This document shows, piece by piece, positions 30,469-38,150 of a DNA stretch of 64,000 nt. Made by a program: the position numbers and the translations under genes. Each line of letters begins with the position of its first letter. The stretch's first letter is position 1. The DNA comes from Halegenticoccus soli. Lineage in GTDB: Archaea > Halobacteriota > Halobacteria > Halobacteriales > Haloferacaceae. The stretch spans positions 558,001 to 622,000 of the forward strand of contig NZ_PEND01000002.1 in the NCBI RefSeq assembly GCF_002844195.1, given 5' to 3'. The notes under the pieces are model-generated. The model had not been told where the DNA came from. It made no database searches and saw only the letters and a list, made by a program, of their open reading frames with translations.

Positions 30469-32586
30469 TCACCGGTTCTCGCCCCGGCGGCCGGCCGTAC
30501 CGGTCGATCGACAGGACCGGTCGACCGACACCGACCCGAGATCCGCCTCGACGACGCTCACGTCGAACGCGCCGACCGCGGCGTCGCCGACGACCCAGGC
30601 GGCGTCGGCCGGGGCCGAGATCCGAACCGGATCCGAGGTGAAGTTCGTGATCCAGACGAATCCGTCACGCTCGGCCGCGCGGACGCCCGTCGGGAACCGG
30701 TCCGCGCACCCGACGCCGGCGCGGTCGAGCAGGTTGCCCGCGACCGCCGCAGCCAGATCGGCCTCGGGCCACGTGCCGACGTGGGTCGCGGATCCGCTCC
30801 CCACGTCGTTCCGGACGATCGCCGGCCTCCCCGCGGCGACGCCGCTTTCGTGCGTCCCGACGACGGTCGCGTCTCCCGGCGCGAGCCACTCCGCCCACGT
30901 GCGCGCCGGGTACGGTTCTGCGGTGCGGTTCGGCCGACCGGGCCGGTCGGTCTGATCGGACCGACCGGATCGACCCGACCCGCCGGAACCGTCGCTGTAG
31001 GACACCTCCGGCGCGATCGAGTCCGGGAGGCTCTCGTGGCGCTCGACCGTCGCGCCGACGAGGTCCGCGAGCGGTCCCGGCGCCGGTTCGGCGCGGAGCT
31101 TGTTCCACGGGTCCTTGACGCCCGACCGGATCGTCAGGAGGAGCTCGCCCCCCGCCTCGACGTAGTCGCGCAGGTGCGACGCGAGGGCGTCGTCGACGAG
31201 GTGGAGCGTCGGCGCGACGACCGCGGCGTACCCGTCGAGGTCCGCCCGCGGGTGGACCACGTCGACCTGCACTCCCCGCTCCCGCAGCGCCCGGTAGTAG
31301 GTCCGCGCGTGGGACCAGTACTCGAAGTCGGGCGAGTGCGGCTGGATCGAGAGCGCCCAGTGGTTCTCGTAGCCGTGCAGCAGCGCGACCGGCGCGTCGA
31401 CCGACGCGAGGTCCGGGAGCTCCTGAATCTCCTTCGCCGCCCGCCGGGCGTCGTCGTACCCGCGATCCGGCGAGCCGTCGGCCTTCCTGAGCCCCGCGTG
31501 GTACTGCTCCTGTCCCTCCAGACACCGACGCCACCTGAAGTAGAGCACGGCGTCCGCCCCGTGCGCCGTCGCGTGGTGGGCCCACAGGCGCATCGCCCCC
31601 TCGGCGGGCTGCGGGGCGTGCGGCGGCCAGTTGATGTCGCCCGGCTGCTGCTCCATCACCCAGAACGGTTCGCCGTTCGTTCCCCGGTAGAGGTCGTGGT
31701 TCACGCCGACCTGGTCCGGGTCGCCCGCGCGGAGTTCGTCGGGCGTCGCCTCCTCCGGCCGTCGATACTGGGGGAACCCCGTCGGGTACGAATCCCACGC
31801 CACGAGGTCGAGGTCGTCGCTGACGGCGTGCGCGTCGAGCGTCCCGAAATCGCCCATGAAGTTGTGCGCGACGAACCACTCCGCGTTCGCCTCCCGCACG
31901 AGGCGGGCCTGGAGCCGGCTGTACTCGACGACGCTCTCGCTCGCGAACCGGTAGTACTCCAGGAGGTGCGAGGGGTGGTGGTCGGACGGGGTCGGCCGCG
32001 GCGGCTCGACCGCCTCGAAGCCGCCGTACCGCTGGCTCCAGAACGTCGTCCCCCACCGCCGGTTCAGCTCGTCGACGTCGTCGTAGCGGTCGCGGAGCCA
32101 CTCGCGGAACGCGGCGGCGCAGTCGTCGCAGTAACAGCGGACCGTCCCGTGACACCCGAACTCGTTGTCGATCTGCCAGCCGACGACGCGCGGATCGTCG
32201 GCGTAGCGATCGACCATCCGCGAGACGACGCGCTCCGTCTCCGCGCGGTAGGCCGGGGAGTTGAAGCAGTAGTGCCGCCGGCTCCCGAACCCCCGGGGGG
32301 TGCCGTCCGGCTCGGCCTGCAGGATCTCGGGGCGCTCGTCGACGAGCCACTTCGGCGGCGTCGCCGTCGGCGTACAGAGGACGACCTTCAGCCCCCGCTG
32401 GCCGAGGATCTCCACGGCCTCGTCGAGCCACTCGAAGTCGAACTCGCCGCGGCGCGGTTCCAGCACCGCCCAGGAGAACTCCGCCATCCGGACGTACTCG
32501 ATGCCCGCCTCGACCATCTGGTCCGCGTCGGTCTCCCACCGGTCCCGCGGCCAGTGTTCCGGGAAGTAGCAGACGCCGATTGTCAT
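30469..32586 (-). CDS. Glycoside hydrolase family 42 beta-galactosidase
   Basis: This 705-residue cytoplasmic enzyme starts MTIGVCYFPEHWPRDRWETD, typical of GH42. The acid/base Glu is in GWQIDNEFG (Glu142), the nucleophile in PFWVMEQQPG, and the GH42 structural zinc site is complete with Cys107, Cys151, Cys153 and Cys156 (HYCFNSP and RCYCDDC). A trimerisation domain (about 400-600) and a C-terminal beta domain follow; they contain a repetitive Gly/Ser/Arg/Asp stretch around residue 535-565. It should remove beta-galactosyl groups. A GGTTTTAC promoter element lies at 32611-32620. It is divergent from the second dgoD. Confidence 0.92.
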   Translation of the reverse strand: MTIGVCYFPEHWPRDRWETDADQMVEAGIEYVRMAEFSWAVLEPRRGEFDFEWLDEAVEILGQRGLKVVLCTPTATPPKWLVDERPEILQAEPDGTPRGFGSRRHYCFNSPAYRAETERVVSRMVDRYADDPRVVGWQIDNEFGCHGTVRCYCDDCAAAFREWLRDRYDDVDELNRRWGTTFWSQRYGGFEAVEPPRPTPSDHHPSHLLEYYRFASESVVEYSRLQARLVREANAEWFVAHNFMGDFGTLDAHAVSDDLDLVAWDSYPTGFPQYRRPEEATPDELRAGDPDQVGVNHDLYRGTNGEPFWVMEQQPGDINWPPHAPQPAEGAMRLWAHHATAHGADAVLYFRWRRCLEGQEQYHAGLRKADGSPDRGYDDARRAAKEIQELPDLASVDAPVALLHGYENHWALSIQPHSPDFEYWSHARTYYRALRERGVQVDVVHPRADLDGYAAVVAPTLHLVDDALASHLRDYVEAGGELLLTIRSGVKDPWNKLRAEPAPGPLADLVGATVERHESLPDSIAPEVSYSDGSGGSGRSGRSDQTDRPGRPNRTAEPYPARTWAEWLAPGDATVVGTHESGVAAGRPAIVRNDVGSGSATHVGTWPEADLAAAVAGNLLDRAGVGCADRFPTGVRAAERDGFVWITNFTSDPVRISAPADAAWVVGDAAVGAFDVSVVEADLGSVSVDRSCRSTGTAGRRGENR

Positions 32587-32762: not shown

Positions 32763-33917
32763 ATGACACGGATCGTCGACTACGAGCTGTACGAGGTGCC
32801 GCCGCGGTGGCTGTTCCTCCGCGTCGAAACCAGCGACGGCCTCGTCGGCTGGGGCGAACCGATCGTCGAAGGGCGCGCGAAAACCGTCCAGGCGGCCGTC
32901 GAGGAACTGATGGACGCCTACCTGCTCGGCCGGGACCCCTCTCACATCGAGGATCACTGGCAGACGATGTACCGCGGGGGCTTCTACCGCGGCGGCCCCG
33001 TCCTCATGAGCGCCATCGCCGGGATCGATCAGGCGCTCTGGGACATCAAGGGCAAACACTACGACGCACCCATCTACGAACTGCTCGGCGGGCGCGCGCG
33101 GAACCGGGTCCGCGTCTACCAGTGGATCGGCGGGGACCAGCCGTCGGAGGTCGGGGCGGCGGCGGCGGAGAAGGTGGAGGAGGGGTTCACGGCGCTGAAG
33201 ATGAACGCCACCTCCGAGATCCGGCGCGTCGACTCCCCCGCCGCCGTCCGGGAGGCCGCCGACCGCCTCCGCGAGGTCCGCGAGACGGTCGGCCCGGAGA
33301 TCGACGTGGGCGTCGACTTCCACGGCCGGGTGACGAAACCCATGGCCAAGCGGCTGGCGGCGGCGCTCGAACCGTATGAACCGATGTTCCTCGAAGAGCC
33401 CGTCCTCCCCGAGCACAACGACGCGCTCTCAGCGATCGCGGCGCACACGTCGATCCCCATCGCCACCGGCGAGCGCATGTACTCCCGCTGGGACTTCAAG
33501 CAGGTGTTCGAGAGCGGCGCCGTCGACGTGATCCAGCCCGACCTCTCGCACGCCGGCGGGATCACCGAAGTGCAGAAGATTGCGGCGATGGCCGAAGCGT
33601 ACGACGTCGCGCTCGCGCCCCACTGCCCGCTCGGCCCCATCGCCCTCGCGTCGTGCGTCCACGTCGACATCTGCTCGCCGAACGCGTTCATCCAGGAGCA
33701 GAGCCTCGACATCCACTACAACGAGACGAATGACATCCTCGATTACCTCGCCGACCCGGACGTGTTCCGCTACGAGGACGGCTACGTCGACGTCCCGGAG
33801 GGGCCGGGACTGGGGATCGAACTGAACGAGGAGTACGTCCGCGAGCAGGCAGGCCGGACCGTCAACTGGCGGAATCCCGTCTGGCGGCACGACGACGGCA
33901 GCATCGCCGAGTGGTGA
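32763..33917 (+). CDS. dgoD: D-galactonate dehydratase (copy 2)
   Basis: This 384-residue enzyme is very close to copy 1: nearly every block is identical (PPRWLFLRVETSDGLVGWGEPI, GVDFHGRVTKPMAKRL, FLEEPVLPEH, ATGERMYSRWDFK, QPDLSHAGGITE, APHCPLGPIALASC, WRHDDGSIAEW). All active-site residues are kept, so it should be active. The two copies differ most near the C-terminus. It has its own promoter (TTACATAC at 32732-32739, about 25-30 bases upstream) and precedes the IclR regulator. Related sugar-acid substrates, such as another galactonate-like stereoisomer, are possible. Confidence 0.92.
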   Translation: MTRIVDYELYEVPPRWLFLRVETSDGLVGWGEPIVEGRAKTVQAAVEELMDAYLLGRDPSHIEDHWQTMYRGGFYRGGPVLMSAIAGIDQALWDIKGKHYDAPIYELLGGRARNRVRVYQWIGGDQPSEVGAAAAEKVEEGFTALKMNATSEIRRVDSPAAVREAADRLREVRETVGPEIDVGVDFHGRVTKPMAKRLAAALEPYEPMFLEEPVLPEHNDALSAIAAHTSIPIATGERMYSRWDFKQVFESGAVDVIQPDLSHAGGITEVQKIAAMAEAYDVALAPHCPLGPIALASCVHVDICSPNAFIQEQSLDIHYNETNDILDYLADPDVFRYEDGYVDVPEGPGLGIELNEEYVREQAGRTVNWRNPVWRHDDGSIAEW

Positions 33918-33990: not shown

Positions 33991-34023
33991 TCCGTCCCGT
34001 TCTCAAAGTGAGAACGGGACGGA
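33991..34023. promoter_or_regulatory. 33-bp perfect inverted repeat with IclR-like core
   Basis: Two 15-base arms, TCCGTCCCGTTCTCA (33991-34005) and its exact complement (34009-34023), flank AAG. The core GTTCTCAAAGTGAGAAC (33999-34015) has the form GTTCTC-N5-GAGAAC shared with two other sites nearby. It lies 74 bases after dgoD copy 2 and may be an operator, a terminator hairpin for dgoD, or both. Confidence 0.65.
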
Positions 34024-34183
34024 TCGAACGGGCCCGCCGGGGCGAACTACTCGCCGCGAGGACGCCGCCGGCACCCGTCTCCGCTCCGAGCGCACTCGGT
34101 TCGGACCGCCGCTCGGATCGGAGTCGCGCCGTCGCGCGGCGTTCGGCGGCGGCGCGCGAACCGTTCGTTCGGCGCGGGCGGTC

Positions 34184-34200
34184 GTTCTCGTAACGAGAAC
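34184..34200. promoter_or_regulatory. 17-bp palindrome upstream of IclR regulator 1
   Basis: GTTCTCGTAACGAGAAC is a perfect palindrome (8-base arms around one base). It sits directly before a TGTTATGT element that could be the TATA box for the regulator gene starting at 34240, the position expected for an autoregulatory operator. Confidence 0.7.
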
Positions 34201-34239
34201 AACTGTTATGTGGGCCGCCGTCGAAGGGGGCGAAAGACC

Positions 34240-34998
34240 ATGAACGCCGACGGACCGCCGCAGGTGCGGACGACGACGACGAGCCTCCGGATCGTCGAGG
34301 CCCTCCGGGAGCTCGACGGGGCCGGCGTCACGGAACTGGCGAACCGACTCGACATCTCGAAGAGCGCGGTTCACAAGCATCTCACGACGCTTCACCGCCT
34401 CGGGTACGTGCGCCGGGAGGGGAACACGTACCAGGTCGGACTCCAATTCCTGCACCTCGGCCTCTACGCGCGCGACCGGCTGCCGGTCTTCGAAACCGGC
34501 CGCGACGCGGTAGAGCGGCTCGCCGAGGCGACCGGGCACGCGACGAATCTCATGGTGTACGACGGCGGGTACGGGGTGTACGTCCGCCACATCCCGGGCG
34601 GCGGGGACGATCCGATCCGGGAGGGCGAGCGGGTGTACCTCCACGCGACAGCCGCCGGCAAGGCGATCCTGGCGTTCCTCGACGAGGGCGAACGGCGGTC
34701 CGTGCTGGAACGGATCGGCCTCCCGGAGATGACGGAAAAGACGATCACCGACCGGGCCCGGCTCGAACGGGAACTCCGTTCGGTCCGCGACCAGCGCCTC
34801 GCGTTCGACCGCGAGGAGTACGCGGAGGGGTATCAGTGCGTCGCATCGCCGGTCGTCGGCCCCGACGGCGTCACCGCGGCGGCCGTCAGCGTCTCCGGGT
34901 CGATGGATCGGATGACCGGGAAGACGCTCGAAGAGGACGTGACGGGGCTCGTCGTGAGCACCGCCAAGTCGATCGAGAACGAGTTACTGTCCCGGTAA
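34240..34998 (+). CDS. IclR-family regulator 1 (sugar island)
   Basis: This 252-residue protein has an N-terminal winged helix (about 10-70: SLRIVEALRELDGAGVTELANRLDISKSAVHKHLTTLHRLGYV) and a C-terminal GAF-like ligand-binding domain of IclR type (GREGERVYLHATAAGKAILAFLDEGE-like block, YQCVASPVVGPDGVTAAAVSVSG). It sits next to dgoD copy 2 and the GH42 gene, so it most likely senses a sugar acid or keto-deoxy acid and controls this island. Three matching 17-bp palindromes surround it. The ATG at 34240 was chosen; a GTG 30 bases upstream would add ten basic residues. Confidence 0.9.
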   Translation: MNADGPPQVRTTTTSLRIVEALRELDGAGVTELANRLDISKSAVHKHLTTLHRLGYVRREGNTYQVGLQFLHLGLYARDRLPVFETGRDAVERLAEATGHATNLMVYDGGYGVYVRHIPGGGDDPIREGERVYLHATAAGKAILAFLDEGERRSVLERIGLPEMTEKTITDRARLERELRSVRDQRLAFDREEYAEGYQCVASPVVGPDGVTAAAVSVSGSMDRMTGKTLEEDVTGLVVSTAKSIENELLSR

Positions 34999-35182
34999 CG
35001 CCCGATGGAGTGTCGCACGCGAGAACGCTTCGGCGGACTCGAACCGTCGCTCCCGGGGGGAGTAGCAGCGCGGGGACGTCGCTTTGCTCGCCGTCGATGC
35101 TCCCGGACGGCCCGCAGGGACGCTGACGCCCGGTCCGACCGTGTCTCGAACCCGATCGACGGTTCGCGAACGAGCCTCGGTT

Positions 35183-35199
35183 GTTCTCATATCGAGAAC
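35183..35199. promoter_or_regulatory. Third GTTCTC-N5-GAGAAC palindrome
   Basis: GTTCTCATATCGAGAAC has 6-base perfect arms and the same 17-base span as the two sites upstream of the IclR gene. It lies 185 bases downstream of that gene. Confidence 0.55.
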
Positions 35200-35962: not shown

Positions 35963-36520
35963 ATGAACGGTAACACCGCACTCGCGACCGCGGCGGTGGT
36001 GTGCTGTCTCCTCCTAGCCGGCTGTGCGGCCGTCGAATCGGCGCCTCCCGGGACGCCGTCCCCCGTCCCGCAGGAGCCGACGACGGACTCCGGACCGACG
36101 ACTGACCCGCCCGGGACGGAGCGGACCGACGCCCGTTCGACGACCGCCGCCCCGACGGAGTCGACGGCGACGGACACGCCCGCCGACACGCCGACGCCGA
36201 CTCCGGAGCCGACGCCGACCCGGACCGAGACGGCCGTGGCGACGGAGACGCCGACGCCAACTCCGACTCGAACGCCGACGGCGTCGCCGTCTCCGGAGCC
36301 CACGACGGAAGGCCCGACGACGCAGCAGCCTACGCCGACTCCGGAGCCGACGCCGACTCCGGAGCCGACGGCCACGCCGACGGGGGAACCGACGACGACG
36401 GAGACGCCGACTTCGACTCCCCCCGACGAGTCGACCGCGACGCCGAACGGATCGGCGGAATCGTCGGCGACGCCCGACGAAACGGGAACGACCGACGCGT
36501 CGGGGACGAGCGCGGAGTGA
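35963..36520 (+). CDS. Thr/Pro/Glu-rich lipoprotein
   Basis: This 185-residue protein has a lipoprotein signal (NTALATAAVVCCLLLAGC, lipid Cys about 21) and no twin arginine, so export could be by Sec. The rest is low-complexity Thr, Pro, Glu and Ser with repeated TPTPEPTPTPEP units, probably a heavily glycosylated, extended surface stalk. There is no folded domain. Low-complexity DNA here also produces long false reading frames on the other strand. The neighbours give no hint of its role. Confidence 0.75.
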   Translation: MNGNTALATAAVVCCLLLAGCAAVESAPPGTPSPVPQEPTTDSGPTTDPPGTERTDARSTTAAPTESTATDTPADTPTPTPEPTPTRTETAVATETPTPTPTRTPTASPSPEPTTEGPTTQQPTPTPEPTPTPEPTATPTGEPTTTETPTSTPPDESTATPNGSAESSATPDETGTTDASGTSAE

Positions 36521-37319: not shown

Positions 37320-38096
37320 CTAGGAGAACGTCAGGTTGATCTCGACCTCGTTCGCGGCCCCGAGCAGGAGGTCGGGGAGCTCCTTCGTCAACCGGTCGCC
37401 CTTCAGCCGATTCGCCGGCCCGGAGATGCTGATCGCGCCGGTGGCGACGCCCTCGTCGTCCGTTATCGGCGCGCCCACCGCGTGGAGCCCCGGTATCGAC
37501 TCTTCGCGGTTGAACGCGTAGCCCCTGTCGGCGATCCGTTCGAGCTGTTCGAACAGGTCGTCGCGAGAGGTGATCGTGTTCGGGGTCCTCGCGGGGAGGC
37601 CGTGCTCGTCGACGATGCGCTCGACCCGCTCGCGCGGCGCGTGAGCGAGAATCGCCTTGCCCGCGGCCGTCTGGTGGAGGTAGCCGCGCTCGCCTTCGCG
37701 CGCCGTCGTCCTGACCGAGTGCTTTCCGGCGGCGCCGTAGAGGTGGACGCTCCGGCCCTGTTCCTCCGCCAGACACCACACTTTCTCGCCCGTCGTCGCC
37801 GCGAGTTCGTCGACCTTCGGCTTCGCGATCTCGTAGAGAGGTCGCAGGCTACGGGCGCGCAGCCCGAAATCGAGGAGTCGGAGGCCGAGGCGGTACCCGC
37901 CGTCGTGCTCGACGACCAGGCCGTGCGTCTGAAGCGTCGCGAGGTGTCGGTGGACGGTGCTCTTCGCCAGGCCCAGTCGGCGCGCGAGGTCGCTGACGCC
38001 GAGCGACTCCTCTTCCTCCGCCTCCTTCAGCTGTTCGAGGATTGCGAACGACGTTTCGGCGGTTTTCACCGGCCGTTTGTTCGGTTCGACGGGCAT
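37320..38096 (-). CDS. IclR-family regulator 2
   Basis: This 258-residue regulator has a winged helix (KTAETSFAILEQLKEAEEEESLGVSDLARRLGLAKSTVHRHLATL, about 11-60) and an IclR ligand domain (EGERGYLHQTAAGKAILAHAPRE, FNREESIPGLHAVGAPITDDEGVATGAISISGP). The ATG at 38096 is 27-33 bases after a TTTATTA element (38123-38129), so I prefer it to the one at 38120. A 17-bp palindrome lies right behind that promoter. It is divergent from the TPP-enzyme genes and probably controls them. Confidence 0.9.
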   Translation of the reverse strand: MPVEPNKRPVKTAETSFAILEQLKEAEEEESLGVSDLARRLGLAKSTVHRHLATLQTHGLVVEHDGGYRLGLRLLDFGLRARSLRPLYEIAKPKVDELAATTGEKVWCLAEEQGRSVHLYGAAGKHSVRTTAREGERGYLHQTAAGKAILAHAPRERVERIVDEHGLPARTPNTITSRDDLFEQLERIADRGYAFNREESIPGLHAVGAPITDDEGVATGAISISGPANRLKGDRLTKELPDLLLGAANEVEINLTFS

Positions 38097-38122
38097 CCTA
38101 CCGCCCGAGACGGAAACCATCG

Positions 38123-38133: not shown

Positions 38134-38150
38134 GTTCGAGTAGTTCGAAC
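38134..38150. promoter_or_regulatory. 17-bp palindrome upstream of IclR regulator 2
   Basis: GTTCGAGTAGTTCGAAC has 6-base perfect arms around 5 bases, the same geometry as the sites near regulator 1 but with a different half site (GTTCGA against GTTCTC). It abuts the promoter of the regulator gene. Confidence 0.6.

Follow-up and report, generated by a model that had tools for sequence, protein, structure and literature searches.

Among the described binding sites of IclR-family regulators, those most similar to the sites considered here are the group 1 motifs that Suvorova and Gelfand (2021) derived from 320 bacterial genomes, with the consensus GKTYCRYW3-4RYGRAMC and a GTT-11-AAC subgroup, which is common among regulons for sugars and sugar acids and whose members are mostly located shortly before gene starts (PMC8222616). 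In the haloarchaeon Haloferax volcanii, XacR, likewise an IclR regulator of sugar catabolism, activates its pathway and negatively regulates its own synthesis (PMC6995148).

Here, we analysed a window of the Halegenticoccus soli genome, that is, the whole stretch of 64,000 nucleotides, which contains an IclR-family gene, termed iclR1, downstream of a galactonate dehydratase gene (Table 1). Membership of IclR1 in the family is indicated by matches to PF09339 (47.4 bits, cut-off 22) and PF01614 (116.8 bits, cut-off 24), and sugar ABC-transporter genes are located next beyond the GH42 beta-galactosidase gene. The sequence-only reading had described three palindromes of the form GTTCTC-N5-GAGAAC around iclR1, and all three exact 17-mers are present where it had placed them. 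Like the sites of the bacterial GTT-11-AAC subgroup, they are 17-bp palindromes with GTT/AAC ends 11 bases apart that go with an IclR-family regulator (PMC8222616), and the palindromic frame GTT-N11-AAC is found in all three. In contrast, the bacterial consensus GTTYCRYW3RYGRAAC has a C at position 5 (PMC8222616), where the IclR1 sites carry T in all six arms and other haloarchaeal IclR genes A, G or C. Because position 5 is not C, we regard the IclR1 sites as a variant of the frame and do not file them in the GTT-11-AAC subgroup. Moreover, bacterial tandem sites are 18-22 nt apart (PMC8222616), whereas the IclR1 sites are spaced by 185 and 999 bp and one of them is located behind the gene.

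Table 1. Genes, palindromes and promoter elements around the two IclR genes of the window.
Feature	Position	Strand	Remarks
GH42 beta-galactosidase	30469..32586	-	divergent from dgoD; PF02449, E 6.3e-149
Galactonate dehydratase (dgoD)	32763..33917	+	co-directional upstream neighbour of iclR1; NF010624, E 1.8e-203
Site 1, GTTCTCaaagtGAGAAC	33999..34015		begins 82 bases past dgoD gene end
Site 2, GTTCTCgtaacGAGAAC	34184..34200		predicted promoter operator; centre 48 bp before IclR1 start codon
TATA-like box TTATGTG of iclR1	34206..34212	+	assigned by eye; GTTATGTG kept in orthologue
IclR1, IclR-family regulator, GacR-like	34240..34998	+	252 aa; HTH_IclR and IclR_C
Site 3, GTTCTCatatcGAGAAC	35183..35199		centre 193 bp after IclR1 stop
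TTACACCCGTAAGCCTGTAA, copy of TTACA-N4-TA-N4-TGTAA	35225..35244		25 bp past site 3; separate from IclR operator
IclR2, second IclR regulator of the window	37320..38120	-	PF01614 and PF09339
Palindrome GTTCGAgtagtTCGAAC, IclR2 promoter	38134..38150		same frame, inner letters GA (GTTCGA)

In the shuffled window, exact 17-mers of this form are expected with a mean of 0.02, and none of 100 shuffles contained three of them. A scan of the whole genome (4,615,401 bases in 15 contigs) yielded three exact copies, all of them around IclR1, indicating that the motif is private to iclR1 and not scattered. The reversed control pattern likewise occurs three times in the genome, at positions other than the IclR1 sites, and with up to two mismatches the window still holds just three copies of the motif, a chance-level number given 3.48 expected. 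Since the copy number at two mismatches and the genome count are thus ordinary, the signal lies in the exactness and the clustering of the sites; for three sites placed at random, an analytic estimate gives a probability of about 2e-7 that they fall within 1.2 kb. As had been noted before, site 1 is the core of a perfect inverted repeat of 33 bp (33991-34023), in which each 6-bp arm continues for a further 8 bp; at sites 2 and 3 the palindrome ends with the 6-bp arms. Likewise, site 2 indeed abuts the promoter of iclR1, as it ends 5 bp before the TATA-like sequence assigned by eye.

The gene order GH42, dgoD, IclR is the same in Halegenticoccus tardaugens, where the IclR1 orthologue is 80% identical. 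Site 2 together with the TATA-like box represents a conserved island in the dgoD-IclR interval (GTTCTCatacgGAGAACAAgcgTTATGTG in H. tardaugens versus GTTCTCgtaacGAGAACAActgTTATGTG in the window), and the DNA around site 2 has diverged between the two. In the same alignment, sites 1 and 3 are absent from the H. tardaugens orthologue, and TATA-like islands are kept upstream of dgoD and close to the transporter genes without a palindrome of this kind. Moreover, the promoters of dgoD, the beta-galactosidase and the ABC transporter in the window contain no copy of the motif even when two mismatches are allowed. As the motif is missing from the catabolic promoters, the sites point to autoregulation rather than to a wider regulon.

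The dgoD gene of Haloferax lucentense is immediately followed by an IclR gene, the product of which is 43% identical to IclR1. Of the 21 IclR proteins encoded in the genome studied here, compared in this one direction, IclR1 matches that product best. At the equivalent place before this gene we observed a near-palindrome, GTTCACtaactGTTAAC, followed by AACTTATTTG, that is, one imperfect site as opposed to three exact ones at IclR1, and 12.7 kb of the H. lucentense locus contain no exact-frame copy. Judged from its gene cluster, the H. lucentense gene would encode GacR, the haloarchaeal regulator of galactose catabolism of the IclR type. On account of this dgoD-adjacent IclR gene, with its near-palindrome and its best match to IclR1, we term IclR1 GacR-like; the adjacency to dgoD and the best match to the Haloferax protein suggest, and do not prove, that IclR1 is GacR. 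Site 2 is a palindrome within the promoter of iclR1 itself; the operator of XacR (Johnsen et al. 2015) is reportedly a palindrome in the xacR promoter.

The frame shared by these palindromes, GTTC-N9-GAAC, was followed in 133 IclR genes of 129 loci, of which 78 are non-redundant after dropping proteins with an identity of at least 75%. The loci comprise the 21 IclR_C loci of this genome, loci of relatives from one list of matches, and 12 larger regions. The relatives' loci were taken only from the matches listed, where 12 of 30 loci were omitted as being duplicates or covered by the larger regions and 77 further entries were taken nearly in rank order. All sampled genes belong to one haloarchaeal family, to which the scope is confined. 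Around the 78 non-redundant genes, GTTC-N9-GAAC is present in 48 copies within 350 bp upstream and 24 copies within 250 bp downstream, as compared to 0-5 copies for every other spacing from 2 to 19 and to three upstream and two downstream copies of the mirror control GAAC-N9-GTTC. Inside genes, the N9 spacing was found 20 times versus 0-11 times for the other spacings, and two such matches in the window are located in ABC ATPase coding sequence. When all 133 genes are considered, the 600 bp before and the 400 bp after the gene contain one or more exact-frame sites in 61 cases and none in the other 72.

With one mismatch allowed, 41 of the 78 genes carry the frame centred at -60 to -36, 20 of them exactly, and the remaining 37 have no such promoter-zone site; the background for this zone amounts to 76 of 2258 intragenic windows and, among other genes as defined by a crude gene caller, to 4 of 179. 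Correspondingly, GTT-N11-AAC is centred in this zone at 38 of the 78 loci, other spacings at 0-6. In most of the promoters listed, the promoter-zone site runs into AA and a TATA-like stretch. Distances of the distal sites differ and, inspected by eye, show no common phase; helical phasing was therefore rejected.

Exact sites behind the gene are located 5-29 bp past the stop codon at 11 of the 78 loci and 30-54 bp past it at three. A tree of the 78 IclR proteins requires at least 11 changes in the presence of such a 3' site, which is thus not one inherited accident. We rejected the idea that 3' sites generally act as operators for the promoter of the following gene. Among 17 listed loci whose 3' site lies no more than 150 bp behind the stop codon, a single one (L023) has the next called gene in the same direction, about 70 bp on; at the others that gene lies on the other strand or at a distance of several hundred bases, according to a crude caller that also counts small frames. 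Downstream of site 3 in the window, the open frame 35963-36520 encodes a protein that is rich in Thr and Pro and begins like a lipoprotein (LLAGC); it has no match in Pfam or NCBIfam.

Taken together, these data suggest, with a probability of about 0.72, that the three sites are private operators of IclR1 itself, which would repress its own promoter until an inducer is present, with sites 1 and 3 as auxiliary operators. The proposal that the palindromes constitute a dimer-binding operator is favoured by comparative evidence at the level of sequence, namely the private motif, the retention of site 2 in the orthologue and the occurrence of the frame at paralogues. The candidate recognition sequence proposed along with it is supported in refined form, as one version of the family frame GTTC-N9-GAAC. 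As symmetry and family membership suggest, an IclR1 dimer would read two GTTCTC half-sites. Bound at site 2, the dimer would contact the TFB recognition element (BRE) and sit against the TATA box, thereby hindering TFB/TBP and repressing the iclR1 promoter. It would be released by an inducer, which is probably a sugar acid from galactose breakdown, with galactonate and KDGal as candidates. Sites 1 and 3 would probably raise the local occupancy or loop to site 2, which is the weakest step of this mechanism. The pathway genes would not be run through copies of the motif, and any activation of these genes would proceed via weaker or different sites.

It is possible, albeit considerably less probable, that the same operators act with the opposite sign, so that IclR1 bound upstream of the BRE would recruit TFB/TBP and activate its own gene in a positive feedback. 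Site 2 is located immediately upstream of the core promoter, and a position just upstream of the BRE would suit an activator as well; in addition, the haloarchaeal IclR regulators XacR, GacR, RhcR and MscR are activators of their pathways (PMC11519228). On the other hand, site 2 is near enough to the TATA-like box to touch the expected BRE, and XacR represses its own synthesis (PMC6995148).

Given that the genome contains 21 IclR_C genes, several of them with the same frame, cross-talk is conceivable, and the sites might be operators through which another IclR paralogue or another dimeric regulator controls iclR1. This is rendered very unlikely by the inner letters of the palindromes, which follow the gene. 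Among the matches listed in a genome search with two mismatches, we observed a second trio, GTTCAC-N5-GTGAAC, at C1:279219, 279394 and 280252, which brackets the paralogous IclR gene L018 in the layout seen at IclR1, with two sites before the gene and one behind it. All six arms carry TC at IclR1 and AC at L018, while the inner letters are GA at IclR2, where the centre of GTTCGAgtagtTCGAAC is located 46 bp before the chosen start (MPVEPN..., 38096), and GC at L006. Moreover, GTTCTC is found at IclR1 and its orthologue alike, and six of the seven GTTCWC-N5-GWGAAC sites of this genome flank just two IclR genes. In many other IclR genes the inner letters are mixed, and the genome G008 of the same genus is noisier, with six GTTCWC-N5-GWGAAC sites versus 11 for the control and just two of the six flanking IclR genes. 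A lone GTTCAC-N5-GTGAAC is located at G000:C5:119660-119676, apart from both trios.

A recognition code that links Lys46 of the recognition helix with C at position 6 of the half-site was considered and rejected. C6 is present at 10 of 11 loci with Lys46 versus 4 of 29 without it (Fisher 1e-5); however, Lys46 changes once on the tree, which leaves one independent pair, and the association thus reflects one clade and no contact rule.

Very unlikely, too, is an explanation in which site 1, and perhaps site 3, is an RNA hairpin, that is, a terminator or mRNA end of the preceding gene, and not an operator. The location of site 1, 82 bases past the end of dgoD, would be in line with such a role, as would its predicted RNA fold of -38.7 kcal/mol (z -4.13). 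However, site 1 is not followed by a T-run, and no terminator-like match was obtained at any of the three sites. Moreover, the identical 17-mer is present at the promoter, and the strength of the fold derives from the 8-bp extensions, which sites 2 and 3 lack. That the sites are chance palindromes of a GC-rich genome is next to excluded, as the chance-level counts at up to two mismatches and the equal number of exact genome copies of the reversed control are opposed by the exactness and clustering of the sites, the conservation of site 2 and the family-wide spacing signal.

A second palindrome, TTACA-N4-TA-N4-TGTAA, 20 bp in length with a TA centre, is located close to site 3 (Table 1), and a copy is present behind the H. 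tardaugens orthologue (L055) as well. In the 300 bp that follow the stop codons of the 133 IclR genes, we counted TTACA-Nk-TGTAA 25 times at k = 10, once at k = 5 and not at all at the other spacings from k = 4 to 17. The TA centre is present in 55 of 55 matches at loci that had not been fetched by the element, with overlapping loci counted more than once. At the 78 non-redundant loci, the palindrome occurs within 300 bp after the stop codon in 17 cases and within 300 bp before the start codon in two. This genome contains 16 copies, six of them no more than about 400 bp away from an IclR gene, versus none of the control. Across the family, 103 of 167 genomes contain the palindrome, behind IclR genes and elsewhere.

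According to hand tallies that ignore kinship, the TTACA palindrome goes along with ASRP, an archaea-specific SMC-related protein (NF045487): it is present in one of 32 genomes in which no ASRP exceeds the cut-off versus 102 of 135 genomes in which one does, and, within genus g21, in one of 15 versus 28 of 34. At ASRP loci (97 kb) a copy was found in 6 of 20 cases. In the genera g17 and g12, ASRP is present and the palindrome nearly absent, which disfavours a simple one-to-one link between the two. In relatives, genes for ASRP, an SMC-like protein, are repeatedly located just behind IclR genes (L057, L062 and others), at L057 with rdfA alongside. RdfA and SMC-like genes are known as a pair (PMC10869688). 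We found no report of an IclR-ASRP gene neighbourhood in the literature searched, and term searches in the available text of PMC10869688 and PMC9389158 returned no mention of a TTACA-type palindrome. It is a very unlikely, speculative scenario that IclR1 is a bracketed cassette, with its own operators ahead of the promoter and past the stop codon, in which site 3 and the TTACA palindrome would form a composite 3' element where IclR1 meets a second DNA-binding system that acts genome-wide and is linked to ASRP and perhaps to its partner RdfA, with haloarchaeal sugar-regulator genes being held in small loop domains.

The kind of operator described here is known from bacteria, and the archaeal frame together with the 3' site is a variant of it. 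New aspects are the recurrence of the frame across this haloarchaeal family, the bracketing of the gene by its sites and the TTACA element nearby; in the literature searched, subscription papers including that on XacR aside, we found no description of GTTC-N9-GAAC in haloarchaea. The resulting rule is that about half of the sampled IclR genes of one haloarchaeal family have a site resembling GTTC-N9-GAAC some 45 bp ahead of the start codon, and in several of the IclR genes the inner letters are common to all sites of the gene. This rule predicts operators for many uncharacterised sugar regulators, supplies probes for binding assays and points to candidate inducible promoters for halophile genetics. 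Moreover, the recurrent 3' sites raise the question of what purpose binding downstream of its own gene would serve for an archaeal regulator.
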